Origin: Diphasiastrum complanatum
Taxonomy: Eukaryota > Streptophyta > Lycopodiopsida > Lycopodiales > Lycopodiaceae
Reading direction: 5' to 3'
Assembly (NCBI GenBank): GCA_029204225.1
Contig: CM055112.1
Span: 21,642,578 to 21,706,577 of the forward strand
DNA: 64,000 nucleotides
The notes under the pieces are model-generated. The model saw nothing but the letters and a program-made list of their open reading frames with translations. It ran no database searches and was not told where the DNA came from. Each line of letters opens with the position of its first letter. Within the stretch, counting starts at the first letter, position 1. Positions 12,003 to 45,502 of this stretch are shown here, in pieces. Made by a program: the position numbers and the translations under genes.

Positions 12003-12019
12003 TGGTATCAGTGCCTACC
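12003..12019 (+). promoter_or_regulatory. Primer-binding site, Copia B copy 1
   Basis: TGGTATCAGTGCCTACC directly after LTR1. It differs from the usual TGGTATCAGAGC at one base. The same sequence follows LTR2 at 17121. Confidence 0.75.
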
Positions 12020-13338: not shown

Positions 13339-13368
13339 TGATATATTGATAGTGGAGCCTCTTCACAT

Positions 13369-16364: not shown

Positions 16365-16382
16365 ATAATTCTTTAGGAGGAG

Positions 16383-18456: not shown

Positions 18457-18486
18457 TGATATATTGATAGTGGAGCCTCTTCACAT

Positions 18487-19857: not shown

Positions 19858-21482
19858 GAGATAGATCCGAGCCTAAGAGGCTCTCATATGTTGACAAAGG
19901 CAAACAAGTGGATCTTGATTCCACTTATTATGTTTTTTATGTCTCTCATGAAGAGCCAAAGAATGTACAAGAGGCACTCAATACCAAGGAGTGGTATGAT
20001 GCCATGAAGCAAGAGTATGATGCATTGATCACCAACAATACTTGGGAGCTTGTGGATCCTCCTTCCAACAAGCATGTGATTGGTTGCAAGTGGGTATTTC
20101 GGATCAAGTTCAATCATGATGGCACCATCAACAAGCATAAAGCAAGATTATGTGCCAAAGGATTTGCTCAAATCCATGGTCTTGATTATGAGGAGACCTT
20201 TGCACCCGTTGCAAAGATGGTGACAATAAGAATTCTTATTTCTCTTGCTTGTTTTTTCAAGTGGAAGGTGTTCCAATTAGATGTATCCAATGCTTTTCTA
20301 AATGGTTATCTTGAGGAGGAGATCTATATGGAACAACCTCAAGGATTCATCAAGGATGAGTCCAAAGTGTGCTTGCTCTTCAAAAGTCTTTATGGACTCA
20401 AGCAAGCACCAAGATCATGGTATTCAAGACTTAACTCTTTTCTTATCTCACTAGGATTTACTCTTAGTGACTATGATCCTTCCATGTGTCTAAAGTTTGT
20501 TGATAGCAATATTGTCATTCTTCTAATTTATGTTGATGACATTATTCTTTGTGGAAGTTGTATCAAGCTAGTTGATGAAACCAAACTAGCACTTGGATGT
20601 GAGTTTAAAATGCAAGATCTAGGAGAGATACATTACATCCTAGGCCTAGAAATTGATTTTTATGAAAATCATGTCTTTATATGCCAATCTAGATATGCTC
20701 ACTCTATGTTGAAAAAATTCCATATGGAAAATTCTAAGAGCATAGATACTCCAATGGGGCAAATTGTAAAAGATTCTAATAAAGGTGATGAAAGATCCTT
20801 TGAGGACATCACACTTTTTAGGAGTCTTGTAGGCTCCTTGATTTGGCTTACCATTACTAGGCCCGATCTTAGTTTTTGTGTGCACAAATTGAGTCAATTT
20901 ATGCAAGAACCTAAGATCCATCATTGGAAGATGGCCAAGAGGATTCTAAGATATGTATCTTCATCTTGTGATTATGGTCTACTCTATAAAAGTGAAGATC
21001 TATCCATTATTGGCTACTCGGATTCGGACTTTGCAAGTGACAAGATGGATCGAAAGTCTATTAGTGCATACACTATCTTTCTTGGATCTTGGCTTTCCAA
21101 AAAGCAAGATACTATATCTCTCTCTTCATGTGAGGCCGAGTACAAAGCACTCACTACAACTACCAAAGAAGTGCTTTGGATCAAGAGGTTATTAATGGAA
21201 CTAAAGTGCATCAAGGAAGATGATCTACCAATGATCAAGTGTGATAACATCTCGGCCCAAGCTCTTGCCAATAATCCCATATTTCATGCAAGAAGCAAGC
21301 ACATAGAAGTGGCACACCATTTTGTGAGAGAAAAGCTTATTGGAGGAGAAATCTATTTCGAGCATGTCAACTCGTCCTCTTGTATTGCCGATCTACTCAC
21401 CAAGCCTTTGAGCAAAAGTGCTTTCATCAAGCATAGATCTAATCTTGGAGTTATATCAAGATCAATGTTCAAATCTTCATAG
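19854..21482 (+). CDS. Copia B reverse transcriptase-RNase H ORF, copy 2
   Basis: 542 residues, identical to the ORF at 14736, with the YVDD motif and RNase H residues present. It is followed by the polypurine tract and LTR3. Confidence 0.92.
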   Translation: MRDRSEPKRLSYVDKGKQVDLDSTYYVFYVSHEEPKNVQEALNTKEWYDAMKQEYDALITNNTWELVDPPSNKHVIGCKWVFRIKFNHDGTINKHKARLCAKGFAQIHGLDYEETFAPVAKMVTIRILISLACFFKWKVFQLDVSNAFLNGYLEEEIYMEQPQGFIKDESKVCLLFKSLYGLKQAPRSWYSRLNSFLISLGFTLSDYDPSMCLKFVDSNIVILLIYVDDIILCGSCIKLVDETKLALGCEFKMQDLGEIHYILGLEIDFYENHVFICQSRYAHSMLKKFHMENSKSIDTPMGQIVKDSNKGDERSFEDITLFRSLVGSLIWLTITRPDLSFCVHKLSQFMQEPKIHHWKMAKRILRYVSSSCDYGLLYKSEDLSIIGYSDSDFASDKMDRKSISAYTIFLGSWLSKKQDTISLSSCEAEYKALTTTTKEVLWIKRLLMELKCIKEDDLPMIKCDNISAQALANNPIFHARSKHIEVAHHFVREKLIGGEIYFEHVNSSSCIADLLTKPLSKSAFIKHRSNLGVISRSMFKSS

Positions 21483-21500
21483 ATAATTCTTTAGGAGGAG

Positions 21501-22238
21501 TGTGAAGAATTGAAAAAGATTATCTATGTTAGATATAGGGGTCTTATGTTTTTTACATCAAGCATCTAGGTGTAGGATGTTGATAGGAATAAATTTGGCA
21601 TAGATGGCAAAATTATGCATTTCCACTTGTAATGCCACTATTGAGCCAAAATAGAGTAAGAGGCTAAGCACTTGCTAATTAGAGTGTAGACAAGTGTAAA
21701 GTTTTTGTTTGATTAATTCCAAGGGGTCCAATAGGATATAGAGGTGGAACGTTGTGAGGTCCAATAAGAAATTGAGGTGTGCTTGAATATAGTCCAATAG
21801 AATTAAGAGGTGCATAGATCAATGATCCAATAGGACCAACAGATGACAAAATGTGGTCCAATCATAGTTAAGCATAGTGGTAGCTCGTGGACCTACTAGT
21901 ATCATTGTACTCCTCATTTTGATGTTAATTGATTTGGTGATTTCATGGATTTTGTGAGTTATTGGATTTCTAGCTTTCTCTCTCTACCCGAGAGCTCTTG
22001 ATGCATTTTCTCTCTCTACCCGAGGAGAGCAGCTTGTTTTTACTTAGATTATTTTTTGAATACTTCCCACACGTGTGAGTGAGAGTTGGAAGTGATTGAA
22101 TGCATGTAGTAGTGTGTTTTTGCCATAGGATTCAAGATTGATCTTGAATCTCAATCTAGTCTTGATCTTGGTGCATCTACACACCTTAGGAGATCACAAG
22201 TACATGTAGTGGACAGTCCACACGTGTGAAATTTAACA
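21501..22238 (+). repeat. LTR 3 of Copia B
   Basis: 738 bases with the same ends as LTR1 and LTR2 but clearly more substitutions. Examples: TTATGCAT for TTGTGCAT near 21614, GCTAAGCACTTGCTAATTAG near 21663, and CAAGGGGTCC near 21720. Followed by GTGAGTC. Confidence 0.9.
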
Positions 22239-23542
22239 GTGAGTCTTAGTACTCGTGCTTTGTCTGGTTTGCATGATTGCTTGTGATACAAGGAGCTGAT
22301 GGCTCGAGAAGAAACCTTTTCTTTTGAAGGCTGATACCATCAAACAAAGAGAACTACAGAATCTGTGGGGCGGATTTGCATTTCAAGTACTCGCACGTGA
22401 ACGACAACGAAACGACTCAATGTTTGCAAAGGATGGATGGCTAGCCTGTTTCTTGGGTTAGTTTCATTTGCGACAACGCCCACCAGACGCAAGCAGGAAG
22501 TCAAAAGTTGGAAAGGGCAATTTCAGGGGAGATCTTCTATGGAGCAGTTGGTCTTCATTTTGGGACGGCCACCTTCGAAACTGAAACTCACTGAACATGG
22601 GTGATATCCAGTATCAGTTGGGTTTTTCGTCAAAGAGAAAAGACTAGGATCCTCTTCAGAGATTGGCAACAAGTTGGATCGAGCCATAATCCTAGCAGAT
22701 GGGAAGCAAAGTGTTGGAAAGGCTTTTTGTCCAAAGAACTCTACTCTAAGTCTGATCAGCTGATTTTATAAGTGGAGGGGAACTATCACACACACCTCTC
22801 TCTTGGGGCAAATTTTGAATGAAAGTTGACCAAAATGGGGGCAAGTTCAAGGTGACCTAGCCATACTCACACGAGGAGACTGGCGAACTTTGGACCTAAT
22901 AAGTTGACAAGTTTTTGTTGTGGAAAGGAAAGTTTGTTATAGGCTTTCTCTGGACCAGCAATGATGAGGAAACATATGAGTACGCTGGCTTGTGTTACGT
23001 GTAAGGCAGTTGATCAATGAAGGAACTGTGAAAGTTGAGTCTTGCATGAGAGACTTCGTATTTTGAACGGACGCTAAGGGACAGTTCGCGTTGAGATCGG
23101 ACTAGTGCAAACTCTGGGTCATGTGTCTGATTCAAAGAGAGGTACTTGAAGCCAAGCTCGATGTACACTTCTTGTTTTGACTGTGAGGCAACTGACCAGT
23201 GATGGAATTGTGAAAGTCAAGTTTTGCGCGACAGACATGGTGCTTCAAACAAACGCGAAGAGATAGTTCGGATGCGGATCAAACTGGTGCGACCCTTTGG
23301 CTTTCCACGAGGTCAATGGTTACATTTGGGCTGATTCAAAGAGCTACTTTAAGCTAAGTGAGAGGTGCATTGTGGAGTACTCAATCTTTGCCTACCTTAA
23401 AGAGCCAAGATGGAAAAGTATCAAGATCAGGCTGGGACAAGGAGAGAAATCAAGGTGCAGAAGCAACAAGGCACGGAGTGGACCATAAAGTGGGAAATCA
23501 AACGATAAATCCTTTGGCTCAAGGAGCCCTGATACCTGTGCG
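22239..23542. other. Non-coding relic with a diverged 195-bp duplication
   Basis: No supported ORF. About 22997-23170 and 23185-23370 are diverged direct copies: both hold a GGAA(C/T)TGTGAAAGT(T/C) block, then a block ending (G/A)GACAGTTCG or AGATAGTTCG, then CTGATTCAAAGAG. This looks like an old mobile-element end, but I cannot place it. Confidence 0.45.
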
Positions 23543-24396
23543 GACAAAAAATATCCTTCGAAGGGGGGGGGGGGGAGAGGGAGGTGTTGGATTTATCTCC
23601 TCTACTCTCTTAAATCCTATGGTAATCTGCCTCCATTCATGTTGTTGCATTTTTACTCGTGTTGTCGCATAGTCTGCATATTTGAGCTGTCTATCGCTGT
23701 AGTCTGCATTTTTACTCGGGAATTTCCATAGGCGAAAAATGCGACACTGCATTTTTACATGCAATTTATGATAGGAAAAAATGCGACACTGGCCTACAAA
23801 TGTCGACGGTGCCCTTATAAAAAAACGAATATACCTTACAAATGATTTTCTAAGGCATTGGACAGAGTGTCGCAATTTTTGCATTTTCAGCAGCGTGAAT
23901 TTTAGCGAAGCCCGACATCGTGGCCTCCTCACGCTCATTCTATGCACTATGCAATCAGATTTGACAACAGCAGCAGCCACCCACGACCTCCCACAAAAAG
24001 CTCAACCACTTTTGTACCGTCTTCATCTGCACACCTGTAAAATTTATGTATATACTGGATACCATCTGAGTATTTACACAACAAAAGATAGAGAATGAAG
24101 CATGATTCGTAATTCAGAGGCAGACATTGTACATGCCTTCACGCATTGATTCTTTTTTCTAGATAGATTGTCTGTAATAGGTTCATAACCTTTACAAAAT
24201 TGTGATTAGCTTTGTGAAGCACATGGTTATGTCCGCTATTGTTTTGTGCTAACTTGCATTATTGACTCGTATATTTCGTTATACTTAATCTGATTACGGC
24301 TCTGTTTGGTTTTGCATTCAGATTTCTGTCAATACTGCAATGCTTTTCTACATTCTGTCTAGCTATCTAATTGCTTTGTCTGTCTGTTTGCTCTTC

Positions 24397-24521
24397 TGGA
24401 CTAATTATTTGTCTAGCTCTTCGCGACTAATTATTTGTCTAGCTCTTCTCGACTAATTATTTGTCTAGTGAGTCGCGACTAATTACTTGTCTAATGGTCC
24501 GCGACAAATTATTTGTCTGAT
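24397..24521 (+). repeat. Five-copy tandem repeat of about 25 bp
   Basis: The motif CGACTAATTATTTGTCTAG recurs five times with slightly different spacers in the 5' LTR region of the gag-only element. The right-arm copy is at about 37996-38120. Confidence 0.75.
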
Positions 24522-24935
24522 GTTTCGATGCTTAATGTTTGGCTACGTAATCACTATAGTACTAATGATTTTAGAGTCAGTTACTATAAGATCGAACGTG
24601 ATTTCTATCACTACTGTTTTTGTTTGAAATTGATAGGAGTAGTCATGCATGAAGAAAGAGGAAGATAGCTTATTCCGCTGCGCACGATAAGTTCTAATTC
24701 TTGTCGTTCAAATATTTTTCATTCGAGTTCGACCTATCTTTCACAGACCTCTTTCCAACATGGTATCAGAGCTATTTCTATAGCCTGATAAGCTTCCATA
24801 GAAAGAAGACTCTACTAGCCAATAGAGTATTCTTCTTGTTCTATAATTTAGCACTAGTACTTAAGTCACTGATAGTTACTCCTATCACCTAGACTAATCT
24901 TCCACATAGATTTCCAAGGGAAATCTAGTCCTATC

Positions 24936-25674
24936 ATGGACAAGCTTGATGAAGCTAATTATCATTTGTGGAAATTTAAGATGAGAACTGTGCCAATGGC
25001 TAAGGAGTTGTATGACATTGTTACAGGTGCAGAGGGGATACCCGAAGCTGACGATGCAACAATCTCCAGATGGAAGCTGAAGGATGGCACATCATGCGCT
25101 GATCATCCTCAACATTTCGGATACTCAGATCGGCCATGTGTTCGAAGCACAGACATCCAAATAAGTCTGGGACATCTTGAGCACATTATATGAAGTGCAA
25201 GATATAGCTTCTAAGCTACATTTCAGGAAGAAATTTTACTCCCTCAAGATGGCAAATGATGATTCCTTGCAGAATTACATCAACCAGTTACTGAAGCAAA
25301 TGGCCACTGTCGGATCTGTCATAGACGATCAAGACGCAGTAATGCAACTGCTTACAAGCTTGCCAAGCTCATACAACAGCTGGGTGATGATCATCACGAC
25401 GCATCCAGAGTTGACTCTTTCAAGAGTCATTGTAATGTTGTTGCAAGAAGACACGCGGAGGAATGAAGCCTCTAGTTTCTCAACTGATTCTCATGCCTTG
25501 TACACCAAAAAAGACATGACTAAGCAGAAGAAGAAGAAAGGGCCAAAACAATCAAAGCAAGACCATAAACCAACACAGCACAAAGACAAGTCAAATCTGC
25601 ATACTAAGAAGAAGTTGTTCTGCAGATACTGCAAGAGAAACAACCACGAGATTCAAGACTGCTGGATACTATAA
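24936..25674 (+). pseudogene. Gag of the gag-only element, left arm
   Basis: Begins MDKLDEANYHLWKFKM, the DUF4219-like start of Copia gag. The middle is broken: the frame shifts near 25090, the correct frame has a TAA near 25163, and it continues as VWDILSTLYEVQD. The capsid region (NDDSLQNYINQ, QLLTSLPSSYNSWV) and the terminal zinc knuckle CRYCKRNNHEIQDC are intact. It ends with TAA just before the 3' LTR with no protease. The left copy lacks three codons (FKN) present in the right arm. Confidence 0.8.
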
Positions 25675-26164
25675 GGAAACAACTCACGAAATTTGTCGCA
25701 AACAATTCGCGAAAGACGAAAATGTCTCGATACTTAATGTTTGGCTATGTAATCACTGTAGTACTAATGATATCAAAGTTAGTTACTATAAGATAGAACG
25801 TGATTTCTATCACTTGTTTTTGTTCGAAGTTGATAGGCATAGTCATGCACGAAGAAAGAGGAAGATAGCTTATTCCGCTGCGCATGATAAGTTCTAATTT
25901 TTGTCATTTAAATATTTTTCATTCGAGTTTGTTTCTTTTTGAGTTTCACCTATCTTTCGCACACCTCTTTCCAACAGGGGGGGTCCCTATCTTGACCCCT
26001 CAATGCTTCCGCTGTATGTGAATGAATTTATGTGTTCCTTTTTTTTCGAATTTTGAAGTAAAATTTAATTTCATTTAAGTTGATTCAAGACTTGTATTAT
26101 GTGATTGATAAATCAATAGGCCTATTGGCCTTTAAGATTTTAGGAGAGACTTTCCCTTCGAGTT

Positions 26165-28566
26165 CACACATTGGTGCACTATATTTGTGATATCTTGCAA
26201 TCTTGTGTGTAGAATGCTCATTTTATGTTATTTTCAGATCCACACGTGCAAAATACAATAGCTTACTATTTTTGTACATGTATCAACTTCATCATATCAT
26301 AAGTTTGATGTTTGATCAGGTTCTTATTGAGTTTGCATCTCTTTCATTGAGTATATGTTGATTTTTCTACATTGGCAACATTGGTAGGATTGATTTCTTT
26401 CTAACCAAAGATCAAGTTATGGATTTGGATAATGATCTGAAATTCTTCACATGGTATCAAAGCTTGTGTTGTAGGTTATGAAAGGATCAGCCACATTAAT
26501 CAAGGATTTGGAGGAGATATCAATGCTAGAGTATGCTAGATTGACTTCCACTCAAAAATTGAGTTTTTTGCATATGTAGAAGATCAAGGGGAGACTTCTT
26601 CAAATGGCAAAAAGAAAGATAGGTCAAAGATAAAGTGTTTCTATTGTGGCATCAAAGGATACTTTGCAAGTGAGTGCTACAAGAAGAAGAGAGGTCAATC
26701 TTACTCATGATGAAGATGTTGTGGACGTTCAAAACTCAATGATGATGCTTTTGTGATGTCTTCATGTATGCTTGCTAATGATGAATATCTAGATTCATGG
26801 TGGATTGATAGTGGTGCAAGCTCACACATGACTTTTCACAAAGAGTACTTCACTTCTTTGTTAGCATATGGAGATGACAAGAAGGTGATCTACACAACCA
26901 ATGATGGTCAGTGTGCAATCAAAGGGATTGGCACAACTCCTATTTCTCTCTCTACAAATAGGACTGTTCACTTGAAGGATGTTTTGTTCATACCTTCCAT
27001 TACCAAGAGTTTACTTAGTGTGAGTCAATTGATAAGTAAGGGTTTCAAAGTTGAGTTTGATGGAGGTTCTTGCATGATCAAAAGGAAGGATGGCTTGATT
27101 GCAAAAGGTAAAAGGCAAGAGAAGTTGTCAAAACTAGATGCTTGTGTTATTGCTAACCAAGTTGGATGCGTGGCAAGTGAGCAAATACCTATTCAAGAGA
27201 TTTGGCATAAAAGGATGGGGCACCTCAACTTGAAGTCATTGGAGGTAATGGCTAAGAATTAAGTTGTGATTGGTCTTCCAAGATACCTAACTAGCATCAA
27301 TCGTGCTTGTGAGACTTGTGCTTTGTCAAAGTCACATAGACTATTGTATACTAGATCTATCGTAGCCTTTTCAAGTTGTACATTCGAATATTCATGGAAT
27401 TACTACAATTAGCAATAGTGGAGCTAAGATGTATGTAACTTTCATTGATGATTTTAGTAGATTTTGTTGGATCTATCTACTTAAGAGCAAAGATGAAGTG
27501 TATGATGTCTTTGTGAAGTTCAAGAATGCAAGGTAGAGCCAATTTTCTACAAGGATCAAATGCGTGAGGAGTGACAATCGTGGTGAGTATATCTCAACCA
27601 AGTTTAAGGCCTTTTGTGATGAGGATGGGATCAAGAGGGAGTACACATCTTCAAGGACACCCACAATAAAATGGAGTGGACGAGAGGAAGAATAGAACTT
27701 TATGTGAAAGTGCCAAAGCCATGAGGTTAGGTGCTAATCTCCCAAAACCATTTTGGGATCAAGCTTTGTTGTGTGCTAACTTTCTATGCAATAGGTGGCC
27801 GAGTGCTATATTGAATGGAAGAACACCTTTTGAGATGCTATTCAAGAGGAGGCCGAGTATCAAATTTCTAAAACTTTTGGATGTACTTGCTATGTCAATA
27901 TAATTCTTGATGATAGGACAAAGGAGGATTCATCTTCAAGAAAAGGTATATTTGTTGGATATAGTGAGGTGAGTAAAGCCTACAAGGTTAACATTCCTAC
28001 TACTAATAAGGTGATTGTTGGTAGCGATGTCATTTTTGCTAAGGGAGATATTCCAAAGGTGTCTTCAAGTAATGATGTTGTGGATGGATCTAGTATTCTT
28101 GATGGTGATGACATGGATCCTACTTTAGAAGGTGATGATGAAGGACCTTCATCAAGTCAAAAGCCAAGGAGAACATCAAGGCAAAAACTAACACCTTCAA
28201 GGCTCACATATGATGAGAAAGGTTAGAAAGTTGTTGGAGGTACACACTTTGATTTTCTAACCTCTTTTGATGAACCTACTTGTGTAGATGAAGCAAGGGA
28301 CAAAGATGAGTGGATCCAAGCAATGGATATTGAGTATCAAGCTCTCTTGAAGAATGATACATGGAGATTGGTTGAGTTACCTAAGGACAAGAAAGCTATT
28401 GGATGTAAATGGAACTTCAAGGTGAAGACAAACCAAGATGGATCTATCAATAATCAGATGGCAAGGTTGGTGGCAAAAGGATATGCTCAAGAACATGGTA
28501 TTGACTATGATGAAACCTTTGCACCCATGGCAAAGATGGTAAGCATTCGGGTCATCATCTCTCTTG
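26165..28566 (+). pseudogene. Truncated Copia C, left arm
   Basis: A 5'-truncated LTR (about 26165-26451) is followed by TGGTATCAAAGC and a leader, with most of gag deleted. Then come a zinc knuckle at 26636-26677 in which the His is replaced by Tyr (CFYCGIKGYFASEC), protease (WWIDSGASSHM), the GAG-pre-integrase motif IWHKRMGHL, broken integrase pieces (27263-27675), the integrase C-terminal region (27676-28226), and the start of reverse transcriptase to ...MVSIRVIISL at about 28566. There the DUF7869-like sequence begins. It has stops at 28224 and elsewhere. Related to Copia A. Confidence 0.85.
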
Positions 28567-29319
28567 AAATAGTTTGCCCCATGATAATAGAATGCCTAAT
28601 TTATTACATTTGATTTTAAACTGGTGTTGAAAGCTAATATCATTAATATTAGCTATGCATCGCTCTGTTTCGTTGGATGCCTTAACATAATCACGAAAAT
28701 CATATGTGTGTCTGATTAGTGACATGTTTGGCTTTGGCACATATGATTCTTCAACAGTGCTTTGAAACATTGGTAAAGAAAATGCTTTCTTGCGTCTCAA
28801 CCTCTTAGAAAAGCAACTACACATTTGATCAATTTGATCGTGGATATGTCCTACCAACAAAAATCCTATTTTTACTTTTTTGAAAATTGTTTTATTCACT
28901 AGCATGGACAAGTATGCCAAAACAGTTTGGTTTTTATTTTCCCTAGCAGTGTTGTCAAGATGCAAATAAAATATTTCTGGAAGATTTTCACCAAATTCGC
29001 AAATTATCTTACGTACAATGGTGATCATCAAATTTGGATCATTTCGAACATTGGGATAATTAAAAAAGACCTTGGACTCCAAAGTGCCATTAAACACAAG
29101 TGCTCCAACGAGATGAACTTGAATAAAATCTGCCTCGTTCAAATTTTTGGGCACTCTAACAAAATGAGGCAACATTGTTTTCTTCTGATCCATGCCATCA
29201 ATAACAAGGCCCAGATATTTTTGTGGACATTCCAAACATTTCTTTCGATGCTTGGCCAACTTTTGTCTTTCAATTGTTTGTTGGTCTCTGTGCAGTTGAA
29301 GAGCTTTTGCAGCATCCAT
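28555..29319 (-). CDS. DUF7869-like protein, left arm
   Basis: 254-residue ORF in opposite orientation to the neighbouring Copia. It contains YLGLVIDGMDQKK, FYLHLDNTARENKNQ, KVKIGFLLVGHIHDQIDQM and SKRLRRKKAFSLP. From memory these match the family now called DUF7869 (consensus around LDNxxxENKN and GHTHxxxDQ), found in repetitive genes of plants, fungi and animals. The spaced acidic motifs suggest an RNase H-like, transposase-type fold; that is inference. The last roughly 12 residues read into Copia C, so the C-terminus is truncated. The protein string is identical to the right-arm copy. Confidence 0.65.
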   Translation of the reverse strand: MDAAKALQLHRDQQTIERQKLAKHRKKCLECPQKYLGLVIDGMDQKKTMLPHFVRVPKNLNEADFIQVHLVGALVFNGTLESKVFFNYPNVRNDPNLMITIVRKIICEFGENLPEIFYLHLDNTARENKNQTVLAYLSMLVNKTIFKKVKIGFLLVGHIHDQIDQMCSCFSKRLRRKKAFSLPMFQSTVEESYVPKPNMSLIRHTYDFRDYVKASNETERCIANINDISFQHQFKIKCNKLGILLSWGKLFQER

Positions 29320-29441
29320 TGAAAATACAATGATTCACTTATTTAATAGAATAAAGATCATATCTGTAGGCTGATATTCCAAGGAATATTCTAGCCATCC
29401 TACGGAACATCTTAAAAAATACAAGCAGGATAGGATTTAAA

Positions 29442-30008
29442 TGTAGAACTTGCCCAACAAGTTTAGGCTTTTACAGTATCCGTACTGGCTTAAGTTATTA
29501 AGTTTTAAGTTTAAATTGCCATAGGCACTGCACATAGATATGTAATTTCAGGTTAAGTAAAAGTTAGTCACAAAGGCCTATTGGGGGTTTGTCCCATGGC
29601 ACCAGTGTGATTCAAAGTTAAGTTAGTCTATGTGGCTTACTTGTCCCACAGTGCATTTTTGGAAGTGACCACCACTCCAAGTATAAATAGGAGTGGAAGA
29701 GTCCATTTTCGAGAAAAACCTCATTTGCAATACATGCTTATCTTTCTCTCTGAGTGTTCTCCCTTGTGTGGTTTCATGTACTGTGTTACTTCACATTGTA
29801 TTGTACTGTATTGATTTTGCAACAAGTTAAGTTAATACAGGTCCTCCATTCTCTAGTAGGGTAAGCCTTAGAGGAGGAGATTTGGTTTAGGGTTTTACCT
29901 TTAAGGTTAAGCCGTCATTTGTTAGAAACTAAGGAGAGAAAAGAGAGAAGAGTGGATCTTACCCATCAAGAATACTCACCACTATGCTCATGACTGTCTT
30001 TCTTGCAT
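29442..30008 (+). repeat. Gypsy-type LTR, left arm, 3' truncated
   Basis: LTR-like sequence starting perhaps at TGTAGAAC (29442), with a good TATA box TATAAATAG at 29682-29690. It breaks off at 30008, exactly where the arm ends, whereas the right-arm copy continues to a primer site. The LTR start is uncertain. Confidence 0.55.
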
Positions 30009-30429
30009 AGATTCATCATGATAGGATTGTCGGCGATGGAAGATGGATATGTACAATTCTAGGTGCAACGTGTATCTGCAAGAGCTTGGAGTTTCCTAAG
30101 TGGAACCATATGATGTTGATCTTAGAGGATTTTACTAAGTTTCAAGTGCTTGAAATTATGGGTCTTTGTTGTGATCACAAATGAACCTCTCTGGATATAA
30201 TTTGCATGCATGCCTGGGACTCGCACAAGTCAAGATCTTGCCAAAAAATAGGCTATGCGAGTACTAGATAGTTCTGTTTTAGGAGAGATCAAAGATTTTG
30301 CACTTGAAAGTATTTCTACAAGTTTGTTCAAGGTTTTCTTACCTTATTTGGGAGTTTTTTTTTTTTTTTTTCAATGTACTCACCTCCTCTCGGATTCTTG
30401 TAGCTGACAAAAGTCGTTGCAAAAATCAG

Positions 30430-30930
30430 GAAATGACTCGTATAGTTGTGCGAGTTATTTCGGACCTAGTCAACTCAAATGGACCACAGAGCAAAAAAAT
30501 TACTAGGGACTCGTACAAAAAATGACTCGTGGACGGAAACGGACGACTCGCACAAAAGATGACTAGCGCAAAAAAATAAAAAAATAAAAAAAATAAATAT
30601 ATGTGGACGGAGACGGACGACTCGCACAGAAGATGACTCGTGCAAAAAAATGACTCGTGGACGGAAACAGACGACTCGCACAGAAGATGACTCGCGCAAA
30701 AAAATGACTCGTAGATGACTCGTATAGAAGATGACTCGCAGATGACTCGTGCAAGGGTGGGAGATGACTCGTACTCACAGATGACTAGTGCAGAAGATGA
30801 CTCGCAGATGACTCGTATAAAAGATGACTCGTGCAAAAAAATGACTCGTGGATGGAAACGGACGACTCACATAGGACTTGCACAGAAGATGACTCGCGTA
30901 AAAAAATGACTCATGGACGCTTGCACGTGG
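30430..30930. repeat. Array rich in ATGACTCG
   Basis: ATGACTCG or GACTCG recurs about 25 times with A-runs and GGACGGA(A/G)AC(G/A)GACGACTCGCA blocks, giving nested periods of about 16 and 60 bases. Short ORFs here on either strand are simple by-products (Ser/Glu/Val-rich) and are not genes. Confidence 0.7.
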
Positions 30931-31319
30931 GAGCTGGCGTACTTGCAGGTGACTCAGAAGGTGACAAAAGAACTGTAAATGGCTATGAACACTAATGAAA
31001 AACGTGTAGTGAAAATCAGCCAGAAACCCACTCAAAATGACTGAAAAAATGGTTGAATTATAGATGGCAAACACCGCTAAAATCTGAAAAACAGTAAGAA
31101 AATCTTGAAAAATCGCTGAAGTCGAAAAATAGCCGAAAAAAACGTGAAACAGGTCTGAAAAATGTTTGAAAAACGCTGAAAAACAGTTGAGGTACTTAAG
31201 AAAAACAAAAAATGTTTTGCTACCAGCTGTAGCTACAGCAGCCCACTCCCTGCACCCTGCTCCTTCAGCCTTCTGAAAAATAGCAGATAAAAATGCTCAA
31301 AAAACGAGACTCATAAACG

Positions 31320-31880
31320 AGGTGTATGCACAAAAAGGAGGGCGTCTAATGGGCGATGGAAGTCACGCTGGTCTGATGGACGGTCTGACTGACGCTGGAG
31401 GTCATGCTGATCTGATGGATGATCTGATGGATGCTGGAGGTCTGATAGCCCACCGTTCGTTGTGTGAGAAGATAGCTCGCTGCTCGTTGTGTGAGAAACC
31501 AGGCTCAGAAACGTTCTATAGAGAACCGAGGCTCAGAAACAGGGTGTATGCACAAAAAGGAGGATGTCTGATGGGCGCTGGAGGTCGTGTTGAGGGCGCA
31601 GCTGTCTGAATTAGGTGAAAGGCGGTCTGATGGGTACTGGAGGTCGTTCTTGAGGGCGCAACTGTCTGAATCAGGTGAACGCAGGTAGCTCAGAGGTGCG
31701 CAGGCAGCTCCAAATCAATTGCAGCTCGGAGGGAGGTGAAACGTAGCTCCAAAACGAGATGGTGGCTCCAAAACGCAGCTCTGAATGGTGAAAACGAGAT
31801 GTAGGTTCGATGGTGGGCTGGCTCAAACTCTGAATGGTGAAAACGAGACGTAGGTGCGATGGTGGGCTGGCTCAAACAGT
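31320..31880. repeat. Diverged short tandem repeats
   Basis: 31345-31450 repeats GATGGA/GCTGGAGGTC(A/T) with CTGATGGA; 31560-31670 has two copies of a GGGCGCTGGAGGTCGT...GAGGGCGCA block; 31785-31880 has two copies of CTCTGAATGGTGAAAACGAGA...GATGGTGGGCTGGCTCAAAC. No coding signal. Confidence 0.55.
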
Positions 31881-32381
31881 GCGATGTCTGATCTACCGGG
31901 TTGCTGGAACTTCAATGGACATGAAAGAGTAGCCCGTAAACAGATGAACATTTTCAGAGGAGTGACTTCTCAAAACGCGGCTGATAGCGTCTGTCTCGGG
32001 GGACATTTCTACAATAGATAACATATTCTGCTAGCAAGCAGCAAGCCATCCATTCTGCTGCACTAGATTTCTAGAGCAGTTCGAACTTTGAAGATCTATC
32101 TATCCGTGGCACGAATCATGGCACTCCCTTTGAAACCTGAGAAGCTAAGGATGGCCCTAAACCCTAGCAAAGATACTAACCAACAAGAAAAATGGTAAAA
32201 GAACCCGCAAAAAACAAAGATCATGAGAACAACAAGCAAAAAGGATGTTAAAAACAAGTAAGAAGAAGGCACAAAGGATGCGAAAAAAAATAAGCAAGAA
32301 CTAAAAAGATTAGCTAGAAACGTAGAACAAACAAAAACAAATGAAGAGGAGCTAGAAACGTAGAGAGAGCGAGAAAAAGAG

Positions 32382-32395
32382 CGGCAACGGCGCCA
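32382..32395 (-). promoter_or_regulatory. Gypsy-type primer-binding site
   Basis: On the minus strand TGGCGCCGTTGCCG directly follows an LTR end ...GATCCAACA at 32396. TGGCGCC primer sites are usual in plant Gypsy elements. Confidence 0.7.
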
Positions 32396-33066
32396 TGTTG
32401 GATCTTCGGCATCCACACCGGCTATGGCTCCAACTAGCTTGACTATGGCAGTCTCCCAACTAGTCTACGCTATGGCTTCTCCAACTAGCTTGGATATGGA
32501 TGCAAGAAAGACAGTCATGAGCATAGTGGTGAGTATTCTTGATGGGTAAGATCCACTCTTCTCTCTTTTCTCTCCTTAGTTTCTAACAAATGACGGCTTA
32601 ACCTTAAAGGTAAAACCCTAAACCAAATCTCCTCCTCTAAGGCTTACCCTACTAGAGAATGGACGACCTGTATTAACTTAACTTGTTGCAAAATCAATAC
32701 AGTACAATACAATGTGAAGTAACACAGTACATGAAACCACACAAGGGAGAACACTCAGAGAGAAAGATAAGCATGTATTGCAAATGAGGTTTTTCTCGAA
32801 AATGGACTCTTCCACTCCTATTTATACTTGGAGTGGTGGTCACTTCCAAAAATGCACTGTGGGACAAGTAAGCCACATAGACTAACTTAACTTTGAATCA
32901 CACTGGTGCCATGGGACAAACCCCCAATAGGCCTTTGTGACTAACTTTTACTTAACCTGAAATTACATATCTATGTGCAGTGCCTATGGCAATTTAAACT
33001 TAAAACTTAATAACTTAAGCCAGTACGGATACTGTAAAAGCCTAAACTTGTTGGGCAAGTTCTACA
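32396..33066 (-). repeat. Gypsy-type LTR, right arm
   Basis: Minus-strand LTR ending CCAACA at 32396 with a TATA box at 32818-32826. It extends 104 bases beyond the arm end at 32500 to its natural end and primer site. So this copy is complete at its 3' end, and the mirrored left copy is not. Confidence 0.6.
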
Positions 33067-33188
33067 TTTAAATCCTATCCTGCTTGTATTTTTTAAGATG
33101 TTCCGTAGGATGGCTAGAATATTCCTTGGAATATCAGCCTACAGATATGATCTTTATTCTATTAAATAAGTGAATCATTGTATTTTCA

Positions 33189-33953
33189 ATGGATGCTGCA
33201 AAAGCTCTTCAACTGCACAGAGACCAACAAACAATTGAAAGACAAAAGTTGGCCAAGCATCGAAAGAAATGTTTGGAATGTCCACAAAAATATCTGGGCC
33301 TTGTTATTGATGGCATGGATCAGAAGAAAACAATGTTGCCTCATTTTGTTAGAGTGCCCAAAAATTTGAACGAGGCAGATTTTATTCAAGTTCATCTCGT
33401 TGGAGCACTTGTGTTTAATGGCACTTTGGAGTCCAAGGTCTTTTTTAATTATCCCAATGTTCGAAATGATCCAAATTTGATGATCACCATTGTACGTAAG
33501 ATAATTTGCGAATTTGGTGAAAATCTTCCAGAAATATTTTATTTGCATCTTGACAACACTGCTAGGGAAAATAAAAACCAAACTGTTTTGGCATACTTGT
33601 CCATGCTAGTGAATAAAACAATTTTCAAAAAAGTAAAAATAGGATTTTTGTTGGTAGGACATATCCACGATCAAATTGATCAAATGTGTAGTTGCTTTTC
33701 TAAGAGGTTGAGACGCAAGAAAGCATTTTCTTTACCAATGTTTCAAAGCACTGTTGAAGAATCATATGTGCCAAAGCCAAACATGTCACTAATCAGACAC
33801 ACATATGATTTTCGTGATTATGTTAAGGCATCCAACGAAACAGAGCGATGCATAGCTAATATTAATGATATTAGCTTTCAACACCAGTTTAAAATCAAAT
33901 GTAATAAATTAGGCATTCTATTATCATGGGGCAAACTATTTCAAGAGAGATGA
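33189..33953 (+). CDS. DUF7869-like protein, right arm
   Basis: ATG-started 254-residue ORF identical to the one at 28555-29319. Motifs: VIDGMDQ near residue 39, LDNTARENKN near 123, GHIHDQIDQ near 157. An identical protein string in both arms means the arms have diverged very little here. It lies head-on to Copia C, whose truncated RT begins after about 33941; the last dozen codons come from that junction. No introns or partner genes of a complete element were recognised. Confidence 0.65.
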   Translation: MDAAKALQLHRDQQTIERQKLAKHRKKCLECPQKYLGLVIDGMDQKKTMLPHFVRVPKNLNEADFIQVHLVGALVFNGTLESKVFFNYPNVRNDPNLMITIVRKIICEFGENLPEIFYLHLDNTARENKNQTVLAYLSMLVNKTIFKKVKIGFLLVGHIHDQIDQMCSCFSKRLRRKKAFSLPMFQSTVEESYVPKPNMSLIRHTYDFRDYVKASNETERCIANINDISFQHQFKIKCNKLGILLSWGKLFQER

Positions 33954-36343
33954 TGACCCGAATGCTTACCATCTTTGCCATGGGTGCAAAGGTTTCATCA
34001 TAGTCAATACCATGTTCTTGAGCATATCCTTTTGCCACCAACCTTGCCATCTGATTATTGATAGATCCATCTTGGTTTGTCTTCACCTTGAAGTTCCATT
34101 TACATCCAATAGCTTTCTTGTCCTTAGGTAACTCAACCAATCTCCATGTATCATTCTTCAAGAGAGCTTGATACTCAATATCCATTGCTTGGATCCACTC
34201 ATCTTTGTCCCTTGCTTCATCTACACAAGTAGGTTCATCAAAAGAGGTTAGAAAATCAAAGTGTGTACCTCCAACAACTTTCTTACCTTTCTCATCATAT
34301 GTGAGCCTTGAAGGTGTTAGTTTTTGCCTTGATGTTCTCCTTGGCTTTTGACTTGATGAAGGTCCTTCATCATCACCTTCTAAAGTAGGATCCATGTCAT
34401 CACCATCAAGAATACTAGATCCATCCACAACATCATTACTTGAAGACACCTTTGGAATATTTCCCTTAGCAAAAATGACATCGCTACCAACAATCACCTT
34501 ATTAGTAGTAGGAATGTTAACCTTGTAGGCTTTACTCACCTCACTATATCCAACAAATATACCTTTTCTTGAAGATGAATCCTCCTTTGTCCTATCATCA
34601 AGAATTATATTGACATAGCAAGTACATCCAAAAGTTTTAGAAATTTGATACTTGGCCTCCTCTTGAATAGCATCTCAAAAGGTGTTCTTCCATTCAATAT
34701 AGCACTCGGCCACCTATTGCATAGAAAGTTAGCACACAACAAAGCTTGATCCCAAAATGGTTTTGGGAGATTAGCACCTAACCTCATGGCTTTGGCACTT
34801 TCACATAAAGTTCTATTCTTCCTCTCGTCCACTCCATTTTATTGTGGGTGTCCTTGGAGATTTGTACTCCCACTTGATCCCATCCTCATCACAAAAGGCC
34901 TTAAACTTGGTTGAGATATACTCACCACGATTGTCACTCCTTACGCATTTGATCCTTGTAAAAAATTGGCTCTACCTTGCATTCTTGAACTTCACAAAGA
35001 CATCATACACTTCATCTTTGCTCTTAAGTAGATAGATCCAACAAAATCTACTAAAATCATCAATGAAAGTTACATACATCTTAGCTCCACTATTGCTAAT
35101 TGTAGTAATTCCATGAATATTCGAATGTACAACTTGAAAAGGCTACGATAGATCTAGTATACAATAGTCTATGTGACTTTGACAAAGCACAAGTCTCACA
35201 AGCACGATTGATGCTAGTTAGGTATCTTGGAAGACCAATCACAACTTACTTCTTAGCCATTACCTCCAATGACTTCAAGTTGAGGTGCCCCATCCTTTTA
35301 TGCCAAATCTCTTGAATAGGTATTTGCTCACTTGCCACGCATCCAACTTGGTTAGCAATAACACAAGCATCTAGTTTTGACAACTTCTCTTGCCTTTTAC
35401 CTTTTGCAATCAAGCCAGCCTTCCTTTTGATCATGCAAGAACCTCCATCAAACTCAACTTTGAAACCCTTACTTATCAATTGACTCACACTAAGTAAACT
35501 CTTGGTAATGGAAGGTATGAACAAAACATCCTTCAAGTGAACAGTCCTATTTGTAGAGAGAGAAATAGGAATTGTGCCAATCCCTTTGATTGCACACTGA
35601 CCATCATTGGTTGTGTAGATCACCTTCTTGTCATCTCCATATGCTAACAAAGAAGTGAAGTACTCTTTGTGAAAAGTCATGTGTGAGCTTGCACCACTAT
35701 CAATCCACCATGAATCTAGATATCCATCATTAGCAAGCATACATGAAGACATCACAAAAGCATCATCATTGAGTTTTGAACGTCCACAACATCTTCATCA
35801 TGAGTAAGATTGATCTCTCTTCTTCTTGTAGCACTCACTTGCAAAGTATCCTTTGATGCCACAATAGAAACACTTTATCTTTGACCTATCTTTCTTTTTG
35901 CCATTTGAAGAAGTCTCCCCTTGATCTTCTACATATGCAAAAAACTCGATTTTTGAGTGGAAGTCAATCTAGCATACTCTAGCATTGATATCTCCTCCAA
36001 ATCCTTGATTAATGTGGCTGATCCTTTCATAACCTACAACACAAGCTTTGATACCATGTGAAGAATTTCAGATCATTATCCAAATCCATAACTTGATCTT
36101 TGGTTAGAAAGAAATCAATCCTACCAATGTTGCCAATGTAGAAAAATCAACATATACTCAATGAAAGAGATGCAAACTCAATAAGAACCTGATCAAACAT
36201 CAAACTTATGATATGATGAAGTTGATACATGTACAAAAATAGTAAGCTATTGTATTTTGCACGTGTGGATCTGAAAATAACATAAAATGAGCATTCTACA
36301 CACAAGATTGCAAGATATCACAAATATAGTGCACCAATGTGTG
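33942..36343 (-). pseudogene. Truncated Copia C, right arm
   Basis: Mirror of 26165-28566. Parts: LTR fragment 36057-36343, primer site 36045-36056, zinc knuckle with Tyr for His, protease/GAG-pre-integrase 35246-35755, broken integrase, then one open frame 33895-34539 covering integrase C-terminus and reverse transcriptase start (GCKWNFKVK, ETFAPMAKM). This frame is longer than in the left arm because AAG replaces the left-arm TAG. Confidence 0.85.
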
Positions 36344-36531
36344 AACTCGAAGGGAAAGTCTCTCCTAAAATCTTAAAGTCCAATAGGCCTATTGATTTAT
36401 CAATCACATAATACAAGTCTTGAATCAACTTAAATGAAATTAAATTTTACTTCAAAATTCGAAAAAAACGGAACACATAAATTCATTCACATACAGTGGA
36501 AGCACTGAGGGGTCAAGATAGGGACCCCCCC

Positions 36532-38941
36532 TGTTGGAAAGAGGTGTGCGAAAGATAGGTGAAACTAAAAAAGAAACAAACTCTAATGAAAAATATTTGA
36601 ATGACAAAAATTAGAACTTATCATGCGCAGCGGAATAAGCTATCTTCCTCTTTCTTCGTGCATGACTATGCCTATCAACTTCGAACAAAAACAAGTGATA
36701 GAAATCACGTTCTATCTTATAGTAACTAACTTTGATATCATTAGTACTACAGTGATTACATAGCCAAACATTAAGTATCGAGACATTTTTGTCTTTCGCG
36801 AATTGTTTGCGACAAATTTCGTGAGTTGTTTCCTTATAGTATCCGGCAGTCTTGAATCTCGTGGTTGTTTCTCTTGCAGTATCTACAGAACAACTTCTTC
36901 TTAGTATGCAGATTTGACTTGTCTTTGTGCTGTGTTGGTTTATGGTCTTGCTTTGATTGTTTTGGCCCTTTCTTCTTCTTCTGCTTAGTCATGTCTTTTT
37001 TGGTGTACAAGGCATGAGAATCAGTTGAGAAACTAGAGGCTTCATTCCTCCGCGTGTCTTCTTGCAACAACATTACAATGACTCTTGAAAGAGTCAACTC
37101 TGGATGCGTCGTGATGATCATCACCCAGCTGTTGTATGAGCTTGGCAAGCTTGTAAGCAGTTGCATTACTGCGTCTTGATCGTCTATGACAGATCCGACA
37201 GTGGCCATTTGCTTCAGTAGGTTCTTGAACTGGTTGATGTAATTCTGCAAGGAATCATCATTTGCCATCTTGAGGGAGTAAAATTTCTTCCTGAAATGTA
37301 GCTTAGAACCTATATCTTGCACTTCATATAATGTGCTCAAGATGTCCCAGACTTATTTGGATGTCTGAGCTTCGAACACATGGCCGATCTGAGTATCCGA
37401 AATGTTGAGGATGATCAGCGCATGATGTGCCATCCTTCAGCTTCCATCTGGAGATTGTTGCATCGTCAGCTTCGGGTATCCCCTCTACACCTGTAACAAT
37501 GTCATACAACTCCTTAGCCATTGGCACAGTTCTCATCTTAAATTTCCACAAATGATAATTAGCTTCATCAAGCTTGTCCATGATAGGACTAGATTTCCCT
37601 TGGAAATCTATGTGGAAGATTAGTCTAGGTGATAGGAGTAACTATCAGTGACTTAAGTACTAGTGCTAAATTATAGAACAAGAAGAATACTCTATTGGCT
37701 AGTAGAGTCTTCTTTCTATGGAAGCTTATCAGGCTATAGAAATAGCTCTGATACCATGTTGGAAAGAGGTCTGTGAAAGATAGGTCGAACTCGAATGAAA
37801 AATATTTGAACGACAAGAATTAGAACTTATCGTGCGCAGCGGAATAAGTTATCTTCCTCTTTCTTCATGCATGACTACTCCTATCAATTTCAAACAAAAA
37901 CAGTAGTGATAGAAATCACGTTCGATCTTATAGTAACTGACTCTAAAATCATTAGTACTATAGTGATTACGTAGCCAAACATTAAGCATCGAAACATCAG
38001 ACAAATAATTTGTCGCGGACCATTAGACAAGTAATTAGTCGCGACTCACTAGACAGATAATTAGTCGAGAAGAGCTAGACAAATAATTAGTCGCGAAGAG
38101 CTAGACAAATAATTAGTCCAGAAGAGCAAACAGACAGACAAAGCAATTAGATAGCTAGACAGAATGTAGAAAAGCATTGCAGTATTGACAGAAATCTGAA
38201 TGCAAAACCAAACAGAGCCGTAATCAAATTAAGTATAACGAAATATACGAGTCAATAATGCAAGTTAGCACAAAACAATAGCGGACATAACCATGTGCTT
38301 CACAAAGCTAATCACAATTTTGTAAAGGTTATGAACCTATTACAGACAATCTATCTAGAAAAAAGAATCAATGCGTGAAGGCATCTACAATGTCTGCCTC
38401 TGAATTACGAATCATGCTTCATTCTCTATCTTTTGTTGTGTAAATACTCAGATGGTATCCAGTATATACATAAATTTTACAGGTGTGCAGATGAAGACGG
38501 TACAAAAGTGGTTGAGCTTTTTGTGGGAGGTCGTGGGTGGCTGCTGCTGTTGTCAAATCTGATTGCATAGTGCATAGAATGAGCGTGAGGAGGCCACGAT
38601 GTCGGGCTTCGCTAAAATTCACGCTGCTGAAAATGCAAAAATTGCGACACTCTGTCCAATGCCTTAGAAAATCATTTGTAAGGTATATTCGTTTTTTTAT
38701 AAGGGCACCGTCGACATTTGTAGGCCAGTGTCGCATTTTTTCCTATCATAAATTGCATGTAAAAATGCAGTGTCGCATTTTTCGCATTTTTCGCCTATGG
38801 AAATTCCCGAGTAAAAATGCAGACTACAGCGACAGACAGCTCAAATATGCAGACTATGCGACAACACGAGTAAAAATGCAACAACATGAATGGAGGCAGA
38901 TTACCATAGGATTTAAGAGAGTAGAGGAGATAAATCCAACA
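36532..38941 (-). mobile_element. Gag-only Copia-type element, right arm
   Basis: Mirror of 23585-25976, 18 bases longer through two 9-bp indels. Primer site at 37745-37756 and 5' LTR end at 37757. It is inserted in a C tract (7 C before, CTCCCTCT plus 22 C after). The related unit near 43052-43064 has an uninterrupted 13-C tract at the same place, which marks the empty site. Confidence 0.78.
36834..37581 (-). pseudogene. Gag of the gag-only element, right arm
   Basis: Same gag as at 24936-25674, with the same internal frameshift and in-frame TAA. Here the NQFKNLLKQ segment is complete, which is the usual Copia gag pattern, so the left-arm version carries the deletion. Zinc knuckle intact (CRYCKRNNHEIQDC). 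Confidence 0.8.
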
Positions 38942-39129
38942 CCTCCCTCTCCCCCCCCCCCCCCCCCCCCCCTTCGAAGGATATTTTTTGTCTGGCCTAT
39001 GCCAATTACATATACAATGGATTCCAATAGGGGTCTCAAAAATAGGAACATCAATTTACTTCCTTTCAATGGTCTTAGTTCCATATCTAGCTTATCATAA
39101 GCATAGAAATTTTTTCATAAATCCTAATT

Positions 39130-39515
39130 CTTCCGACATGCAATCATGATAGATCTTAAATACTTGACATGCAATCATGATGGATCTTAGATACATGACA
39201 TGCAATGATGATGGATCATTTATTCTTGACATGAAATCATGATGGATCATAGATTCTTAACATGCTATCATGATGGATCATAGATTCTTGACATGCAATC
39301 ATGATCGATCATAGATTCTTGACATGCAATCATGATAGATCATTTATTCTTGACATGCAATCATGATGGATCATAGATTCTTGAAATGCAATCATGATGG
39401 ATCATAGATTCTTGACATGCAATCATGATGGATATTAGATACTTGACATGCAATCATGATAGATCATAGATTCTTGACATGCAATCATGATGGATCTTAG
39501 CTACTTGACATGCAA
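39130..39515. repeat. 31-bp satellite-like array in C1
   Basis: About 12 copies of a 31-bp unit built on CATGCAATCATGATGGATC followed by (A/T)TAGATTCTTGA. The core is near-palindromic (ATCATGAT). Confidence 0.9.
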
Positions 39516-39800
39516 TCGTCTGAACTGACATGCATGGACATTAGGCAAAGCATGGCATGACATGCAAGAGTCTAAACACATGCATGGTCATTAGGCAAAG
39601 GATGGCATGACATGCAAGAGTCTAAACTAACATGCATGGTCATTAGATGATGGATGGCATGACATGCAAGAGTCTATCTAAACTAGCATGCATGGTCATT
39701 AGATGATGGATGGCATGACATGCAAGAGTCTAAACTGACATGCATGATCATTAGGCAATGGATGGCATGACATGCAAGAGTCTAAACTGACATGCGTGGT
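39516..39800. repeat. Array of about 52 bp in C1
   Basis: GACATGCAAGAGTCTAAAC recurs at 39561, 39611, 39663, 39719 and 39771, so the period is 50-56 bases. Each unit also has CATGCATGGTCATTAGGCAA. Confidence 0.88.
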
Positions 39801-41036
39801 CATAGGATATAGTTTCTTATGACATGCATATGGTTCTAAACAACCATTCATACATATGCACATCAGATTCATGAACGTACCATGGTTTCAAAAGAGGATG
39901 AAAGTGAGAGAGAGTGTGTGTGTGAGAGAGAGAGACTGTGAAAGAGAGTGAGAGATCCAAGAGGGTTTGAGCTTCAAAATCCTCCAATCCACAATTGAGC
40001 ATAGCCTCCTTGAGCCAATGCTTCCATCTTCTGCTCCCAAGCACTTGTACACAAGAACAAACAAGAGGGAAGAGCCTGGATGCAAAATCATTCAATCCCA
40101 TTGGTAGAGGGGCGCATTTCCACTTATATAAAAAGTGGAGAGTCATTCCAAACTGAGTGAGGTGTCAAGTTCAAGTGCATGAGATGTGGGGAAGACTCCA
40201 ATTGGACTTAAGATAAAGTGGAGTGCATGGATGAGGTGTATTAGTAATTAGAGAGGTTGAATGGGTGAGGTGTATTAGCTTGGGAGAGTTATTATGATGA
40301 TTTGGCATAGGAAGTGAGAGTGAAGGAGGGTGCCCCATTCTAGGTGTCGAATAGCCTAGAATGCATGTAGCAAAGTAGGTGGGAGGTAGGTGGCACATGG
40401 TTTAAACTTCACTTTATTTTTCATATAGTTTTTTTCATTGTCACAACTTGGGAATTCACCCAAGTACAATCTTCCTAGTGAAAAGGCCAAAGTATATGCC
40501 CATCTTGTTTTGCATAATAGTCATCTAAGCCCTTTTTTCTAGAGGTTGCCCATCCTCAATTATGGTCATTGGCACTTTTTTCTAGAGGTTTCTCATCCTC
40601 AATCATGGTGGACAAGGATCAATAGGGTGATCAGACCCTTGGCCTTGTCCCATTCTTTATAGACTCCTCTGAGCCTTCATTATAGACTTAGAAATAAGCC
40701 TTCCGTATAGACTCCTATGAGCCTTTGTTATAGACTTAGATAAGTCTTCTTCTTGTAAACAGTCTTTAGCTTTGAAAGCTTCTTCTTCCCGTTCTGGTCC
40801 TTCAAGCACTTTCATGAGTACCTGCACACACCTTCAAAGTAAGTTCAGTTTCCATACCATCAGATATGGCTTACAATAGGTTCTTAGTTCTACAGGTATA
40901 ATACCTGTAGAAAAATTCAATCAATATCCAAAAAGAATAATGGTCATTGGTAGTTTCATGTCATCAAAGTCTATATGGAATTTGAAGCTGGGAAAGTCTT
41001 TATTACTTTGGGGCGATTTGTCTCTACAGATTACAC

Positions 41037-43064
41037 GCCTCCAATGCATAAAGTGTTGTCCTCGACGAATATTTCTCAAATAAAAGTCTTAAATCTTTGG
41101 ATATCCTTTGAAGGAGTGTTTTTTCATTCATCTTGCATCCATAGTCGGATGATTCTTAAAGTTGCGAAGATATAGTTTTTATGCTAATCTCTTTCTTTTA
41201 GATCTAATCTTATACATTAAGATCTGCTTTGATTGAAGAATTTGAATCTATCTAGGATAGTCCAAAATATTTCATTTCATTCTTGGTCTTAGGTATTCTA
41301 GAAGCAAAATCCACAACAAAATGTTTCTTTGGGGATTCAGGAATGGGTAAAGTTTGAAGTGGTCTTAGAGTTTTCAATCCTGGTTCATCCTTAGTATGTT
41401 AGCATACTAAATATGAGTTTACGTAATGTTTGATATGTGTGTGGTAGGCCAATAGAAAAATCTCTTTTTAGCTTCAAGAAAGTTGAAAGTATTTATGTAT
41501 GTTCATCATTCGATTGAATGTGGCGGAAGTGTGGATAAAACTGAAGGGAACCATTAGAAACTCATATAGGCTAGAGTTAGTTCTGGTGGCTGTTTTAATG
41601 GACATCTTCAGACACTACTCAAATATGGTGGTTTTCTTTTCTAGCACTTGCTTATAGGAAAGTGCCAACCTCTTAGATTACTTTTCAATGTGAAATTACT
41701 GTACTTTAGGACCATAAATGGATCTACAAAAGATCCACAAGAGTGATTGGATGCTTGCTTAACAATCTATCAAAAAACTAGACACAAAAAAGTTGATCTA
41801 GATTGGCAATTTAACAAACAACAAGCATTAACAATCAAAATCATTGATAAACATTGAAATCCGAGCCCACACGTGTGTACTACAGGCTGTAGTACGGCCT
41901 TCAACCTGAGAAACAAGTAGAAATTGATTTGGTTTCATTTGGATCACAAAAACTCAATGTACATAGTGAACTAGCTTGAGATTGCCAATGAGCTCCAAAA
42001 ATTTTCTATCTTCTCACTATGGAGAGAGGGAATACATACCAAATTCGACTTCCTTCTTGAAGTTAGGTGGATTTCCAGCATGTAATAAGGAAGTTAACTC
42101 ACTCTCCTTGACCTAAAATGAAACCCTAGTCTATTTCCTAGAGTTATGCTTGTTAGGTAGCTAGTTGGTCAAATTTTCACCTTAAACTTAGGTGTAGGTC
42201 CTATAAAGTAGGGATGACCACCAAATAGACATGACCAACTCTCTTGACTTGACCTAACCTACATTAGGATGGGTTTTCCATGTGGCATCATGGCCTCACA
42301 TGTGCGGGACCCACTTGTGTACACAATTTGCACTATTCTACATGGTTTTTTATCAAGCTAGGTTTGCCAATTTTTGGCAATTCTTCACATTCAAGAGTGA
42401 TCAACTCAATCTTTATTTTCCTTTATGGATCTAAATCCATATCATGAGATAAGACATTTTCAAAATTATACCAAATTTCATCTACTTAACTTATTCATGT
42501 CATGCAAAAGTTCACTTTTATGTATTCAAGTCAAACAAATCTTGATACAATTCTTTCATATTGACAATTCTATTTCATCTTGCTTTTCAAAGCATTCCTA
42601 GATCTTCATTTAGAACAATCCTTTGATTCTAACTAACAATCAGTGTGATTATGAAAAAACTCCTCTTGTTTTACTCGTATGGCCTTCAAAGATTTAATGG
42701 CATTGACTAGTTTTGGGTTGCATGTTCTTGATATGCGTGACCTTCTAGTTCTCCGCAAGTAGGCATCCAGTGTTCGGTGTCTCAGGTTCTACGTCATGCC
42801 GAGCAGGAGTCTTTATCTTATTAATTCTTTCCATGCAGTACTTGCTTCTTGAAGCAAAAGGCCTCTTAAACAACGGATGGAGCTTTATGTTCTTCTGCAT
42901 GCATGAACATACAAGGTCTTTATCATTCACATAATACAAGTCTTGAATCAACTTAAATGAAACAAATTTGACTTCAAAACTCGAAAACAAAGGATCACAT
43001 GAATTCATTCACATACAACGGAAGGACTAAGGCGTCAAGATGAGGACACAACCCCCCCCCCCCC
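41037..43064. other. Region between C1 and C2; LTR relic, no gene
   Basis: About 41862-42390 read on the minus strand begins TGTGAAGAATTGCC, like the start of the Copia B LTR, and ends near CACGTGTG, so it is probably an old LTR. About 42910-43050 matches the sequence beside the gag-only element in the arms (near 36395-36530), showing this was the ancestral left neighbour of the 2-kb unit. A 13-C tract sits at 43052-43064. No coding region is supported. Confidence 0.45.

Positions 43065-45045: not shown

Positions 45046-45502
<457 letters not shown>

Follow-up and report, generated by a model that had tools for sequence, protein, structure and literature searches.

We describe a giant palindrome in a 64,000-nucleotide (nt) stretch of the Diphasiastrum complanatum genome (C21:21642578-21706577, hereafter the window; genome 1.745 Gb, 5176 contigs), which probably originated as an inverted segmental duplication of nested, decayed long terminal repeat (LTR) retroelements during break repair, with later recombination between its arms and a flip of its spacer. 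Gapped self-BLAST returned one long inverted pair in the window (23563-30008 versus 38963-32500; 6464 columns, 99.21% identity, 33 mismatches), which an ungapped repeat finder recovered broken into three pieces, and reading of the edges carried the pair across a G-tract, so that its left edge lies at 23543 and its right edge at 38992. The palindrome comprises a left arm (23543..30008, + strand), a right arm (32500..38992, - strand) and a non-repeated spacer of 2491 bp (30009..32499). A 6.4-kb match at 99% identity is not a product of chance.

The initial annotation had placed a giant palindrome at 23543..38993, with arms that differ by two 9-bp indels, substitutions and the length of the G-tract. 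Self-comparison bore out the palindrome (arms 99.2% identical) and its left edge, moved the right edge inwards by one base (to 38992) and recovered all the listed differences. One 9-bp indel (near 23731) is common to the window and to a second contig (C1806), the other (at 25288) is present only in the window's left arm, and the G-tract measures 13 and 22 nt (left and right) in the window and 10 and 31 nt in C1806.

Contig C1806 (57,994 bp) is collinear with window positions 1-54471 (~99.5%), except at a tandem element (11-22 kb) and at the spacer, and apparently represents the other allele of the locus, as judged from this collinearity. Its own palindrome arms (27077-33528 and 35986-42446) are 99.54% identical, and its outer edges match those of the window, including the bases missing at the right edge (see below). 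Because the palindrome recurs in C1806 with unchanged outer edges and with variants of its own, assembly duplication is an unlikely source of the structure, and its arms are not identical (both contigs come from one assembly). As the same junctions occur in both contigs, the palindrome predates the split of the two haplotypes. The spacer of C1806 aligns to that of the window in reverse only (6 mismatches, 36 gapped bases); at the level of the assembly, and in these two contigs only, it thus shows both orientations while the outer flanks stay the same, and a complete copy of one of the LTRs (LTR2, see below) adjoins the right arm in the window but the left arm in C1806.

The initial annotation had also described four mobile elements in mirror order in both arms, and arm ends lying inside elements; we see the same four kinds of element piece, with the outer ends in the leader of an element family that we call R and the inner ends inside an LTR (R, E and LTR2 are working names coined in this analysis). 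From the outside inwards, the left arm starts with 42 bp of R leader and G-tract (23543..23584, +; 13 G, 22 G in the right arm), as established by edge reading and comparison with other R copies. A truncated LTR element, E (23585..25976, +; mirrored at 36532-38941), is set into the G-tract and consists of an LTR (23585-24760, delimited by its ends), a gag frame (25165-25674) and a remnant 3' LTR reaching 25976; a first reading of the arm edge, in which the LTR of E was shared in tandem with R, was dropped, as E sits inside R's G-tract. The adjoining copia-type remnant (25977..28563, +; mirrored at 33945-36531) shows Pol_BBD, gag_pre-integrs, SH3_retrovirus and the start of RVT_2, with gag_pre-integrs (26 bits) under its cut-off of 28.4. 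Its first 130 bp after E (25983-26112) match a second copy of R in the window (88%), the match ending there, and are part of R, to which the pol remainder would also belong. Next comes a fragment (28564..29364, -; mirrored at 33144-33944) with a DUF7869 reading frame (28555-29334, -; 259 codons stop-to-stop; PF25273, E 3.7e-47) that is open in both arms; the frame matched no solved structure up to E 1, and no paper naming DUF7869 was found in the literature searched.

The innermost piece of the left arm is an LTR2 copy (29365..30008, +) whose 3' end is 104 bp short and which holds TATAAATA at 29682-29689. The complete LTR2 (748 bp, TGTAGGCTG..GATCCAACA; 32396..33143, -; TATAAATA at 32819-32826) is found on the right side only in the window, and a TGGCGCC stretch that comes after it is similar to a primer-binding site. 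The spacer consists of the interior of the LTR2 retroelement, as a continuation of the right LTR (30009-32395), and the last 104 bp of that LTR (32396-32499). A scan of 22000-46000 against Rfam gave nothing at gathering scores.

The right outer edge (38992..38993) preserves a trace of the presumed break. The right flank (38993..41036, -; with 31-bp and 52-bp tandem repeats) continues R, and a second, direct copy of the R leader region lies at 42919-45045 (~88%). A search with the right flank gave 40 rows (from 698 first-look candidates), 38 of which begin at 38993, the remaining two being this locus and its C1806 counterpart. All 14 of the outside rows that were fetched and read (two of which, L049 and L050, are identical in the stretch read and are perhaps one locus) present a C-rich tract, a short stretch resembling GGATATTTCTTGTC, 15 or 16 bp, and then the right-flank sequence. 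The second window copy of R also has these 15-16 bp, and among the copies read the palindrome alone is without them, in both contigs and exactly at the arm edge; a loss at this very position points to end joining at a break there. At the left outer junction (23542..23543) the arm meets a flank in which reading revealed no resemblance to the R leader. Because the right flank continues the arm's R leader as in other copies, the right arm would be the original and the left arm its inverted copy.

At the central junction (30008..30009) LTR2 is joined inverted to LTR2 internal sequence. The state before the event is given by intact LTR2 internal copies (C6/C6a, C11) for the sequence preceding 30009 and by the complete LTR2 for that following 30008, and against these the join is blunt (0-bp microhomology), having no base in common with either continuation. 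In the LTR2 search (best 40 of 1479 first-look candidates scored; 41 rows, one short secondary row left out) only the four main rows belonging to this locus and C1806 cross the junction, and the other 36 end exactly at 30008 (35 rows) or 2 bp short of it (one row). Neither a short inverted repeat nor microhomology, the marks of a hairpin-primed fold-back, was found at the centre, and no stem was seen by reading both spacer edges (no fold computed).

Since the blunt centre lies inside one LTR element and bases are lost at the outer edge, break repair with a templated inverted insert fits better than hairpin-primed fold-back. In this scenario, an inverted copy of 38992-32500 would have become attached to the left flank at one end and, by a blunt join, to the broken inside of LTR2 (30009) at the other; the LTR2 internal region would thereby have been left as an asymmetric spacer, and the outer arm edge would have lost 15-16 bp. 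A general parallel is the filler DNA of double-strand breaks in plants, in that nearby sequence is copied, possibly inverted, and inserted at the break, with 6.5 kb being long for such filler. We infer the repair pathway, the copying direction and, further below, conversion and crossover from the junctions and the variant patterns.

The rival account that fares best, which we nonetheless regard as somewhat unlikely, is a replication-based template switch or hairpin-primed fold-back, in which a nascent or resected strand folds back, primes itself and copies the arm outwards. Such an event gives an inverted duplication with a spacer, as in post-break fold-back inversions, where the duplication likewise lies beside the break (PMC7467729, PMC10622511), and long loops have a precedent in yeast, whose fold-back hairpin loops have medians of 3-4 or 36 nt depending on genotype and extend up to many thousands of nucleotides (excerpt of PMC7467729). 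Unlike those inversions, the present centre shows neither microhomology nor a stem, and fold-back or template switching by itself leaves the loss at the right outer edge unexplained. The origin proposed in the initial annotation (a template switch or fold-back repair) was right in kind: a template switch is possible, while the hairpin-primed form is disfavoured by the 0-bp microhomology, the 2.5-kb spacer and the edge loss, and is less likely because a stem or microhomology would be expected at the centre.

A four-arm alignment spanning 23585-30008, which left out the G-tract and did not score indels, contained 42 variable substitution sites. Thirteen of these are left-versus-right differences common to both contigs, 28 are private to one arm (window left 10, window right 10, C1806 left 7, C1806 right 1), a single site groups the two arms within each contig and none shows a switched-sides pattern. 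All 13 shared, old differences are situated at or outside 26694, near the arm midpoint, so that the inner half holds 0/13 old differences versus 16/28 private ones (Fisher p = 0.0004; the boundary was taken from the data, and the arm midpoint yields the same counts). Arm-to-arm divergence amounts to 33 of 6424 sites in the window and 21 of 6433 in C1806 (inner halves: 13 and 3 of 3314, respectively); between the contigs, the left arms differ at 18 of 6424 sites and the right arms at 12 of 6442. Because the shared differences are all in the outer half and none switches sides, the pattern suggests recombination between the arms, in which conversion homogenised the inner halves and a crossover there flipped the spacer. 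On the simplest reading, this arm-arm crossover would have taken place on the C1806 lineage between 26694 and 30008 (~3.3 kb; about 26.7-30.0 kb), yielding the opposite orientation that is seen in the assembly.

Several points weigh against a history of repair, conversion and flip. The support for conversion is indirect, as the old differences are absent from the inner half, yet just one site unites the two arms of each contig, and the 13 inner-half differences in the window argue against strong ongoing homogenisation; an inner half devoid of old differences could also stem from a starting state that differed locally. C1806 is judged to be allelic from collinearity, and the orientation of the spacer in one of the contigs could be a choice of the assembly.

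This last point amounts to an explanation of its own, in which the palindrome is real but the spacer has a single true orientation, the assembly having turned it the wrong way in one contig. Such mis-orientation is favoured by 6.4-kb arms with >99% identity. The variants nearest the spacer are, however, 164 bp (window) and 534 bp (C1806) away from it, and the longest identical arm runs measure 1.6 kb (window) and 1.3 kb (C1806), a spacing of arm-specific variants that should let accurate ~4-kb reads phase the spacer in either contig; we hold an assembly error to be unlikely.

The tandem element by which C1806 also departs from the window is of copia type (11259-22238); the window holds three of its LTRs (744 bp) and two internal regions, C1806 two LTRs and one internal region. 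In both contigs 14 sites separate the first from the last LTR, and the middle LTR of the window is of the first type at 13/14 and of the last type at 1/14 (position 3), as an unequal LTR-LTR crossover would give, with position 3 as the only site that marks the switch.

Hairpin RNA from the locus, which the initial annotation had put forward as a strong candidate source of small RNAs for every family in the palindrome, is possible, and maize Mu killer is the functional precedent for this idea. The TATA-like TATAAATA is present in both LTR2 copies (29682, 32819), and with a start assumed ~30 bp downstream of the one in the complete LTR2, the predicted transcript would form a stem of 296 nt, mismatched at one position, that encloses the spacer. 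The promoter-like site of the spacer element itself would give a ~0.3-kb stem of LTR2 only, and longer stems, or the pairing of other families, would arise only if transcription ran on beyond an LTR that has the same orientation. That hairpin RNA from the locus silences its families, as has been proposed for maize Mu killer, is in our view improbable: inverted LTR2 copies do lie downstream of a TATA-bearing LTR2 and the predicted stem is nearly perfect, but the count of TATAAATA in the window is near chance (5 found versus 3.75 expected), and without long read-through only the LTR2 part would pair. Both loci are natural inverted duplications of mobile-element sequence with a potential hairpin transcript, and they differ in that, for Mu killer, both silencing and transcripts have been demonstrated (excerpt of PMC3440606), while the present locus is known from sequence alone and involves several element families. 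More doubtful still is a spacer that flips back and forth within the species, with the intact LTR2 promoter facing left and right alternately; if true, such a flip-flop would redirect read-through and hairpin transcription between the two flanks.

A transposon with giant, foldback-like terminal inverted repeats, for which long inverted arms flanking an internal region might speak, is barely credible and was rejected, given that the arms are assembled from unrelated element pieces, that the right flank carries on the arm's R sequence rather than representing a target, that no direct repeat (target-site duplication) was seen between the flank ends by reading, and that the two arm searches (4264 and 1479 first-look candidates, best 40 scored in each) revealed no dispersed near-identical copies sharing the outer ends besides C21 and C1806. 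The initial view that the arms are not the terminal repeats of one transposon is upheld: they are nested unrelated elements in an inverted duplication.

A general tendency of the LTR2 family to form palindromes was also considered, and two other inverted LTR2 pairs were examined and not taken as the same phenomenon. The pair on C10 (L031/L032, C10:42230814-42234462) has LTR-only arms (748 bp, 96.5%), and that on C8 (L041/L042, C8:34523146-34530308) has 2.5-kb arms that are 91.8% identical and could stem from independent insertions of family copies, given an identity of 93-94% between the LTR copies scored and that of the window. Within the window, a second inverted duplication (391-1795 versus 5007-6388, 87%) carries Cupin_1 frames (709-1536, -, and 5362-6069, +), which we take to be germin-like, and long AG/CT dinucleotide runs occur in opposite orientation at 45087-45205 and 59940-60092 (identical over 119 bp).

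Spacer inversion is a known consequence of mirror repeats of this kind, and the closest parallel for the arms and their spacer is palindrome P6 of the human Y chromosome, in which inverted arms around a unique spacer undergo arm-arm conversion and rarer inverting crossovers, as deduced from arm-specific variants (3 inversion events versus 56 conversions among 83 phased chromosomes; excerpt of PMC3723533). Differences are evident, in that Y palindrome arms are >99.9% similar and those of P6 are much longer and sit on a haploid sex chromosome (same excerpt), whereas the present arms are 6.5 kb of decayed retroelements at 99.2%, seen in two contigs only. No report of this locus was found in the literature searched, which is no proof of absence. 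The palindrome is ordinary in kind and its findings overturn nothing; the spacer flip is a useful addition. We regard the locus as a compact natural case, within one assembly, of a retroelement inverted duplication that seems to have recombined with itself; the position of the crossover is narrowed to about 3.3 kb by arm-specific variants, and a trace of a break survives at the outer edge. It indicates that haplotype contigs with opposite orientations at loci of this kind may differ for biological reasons.

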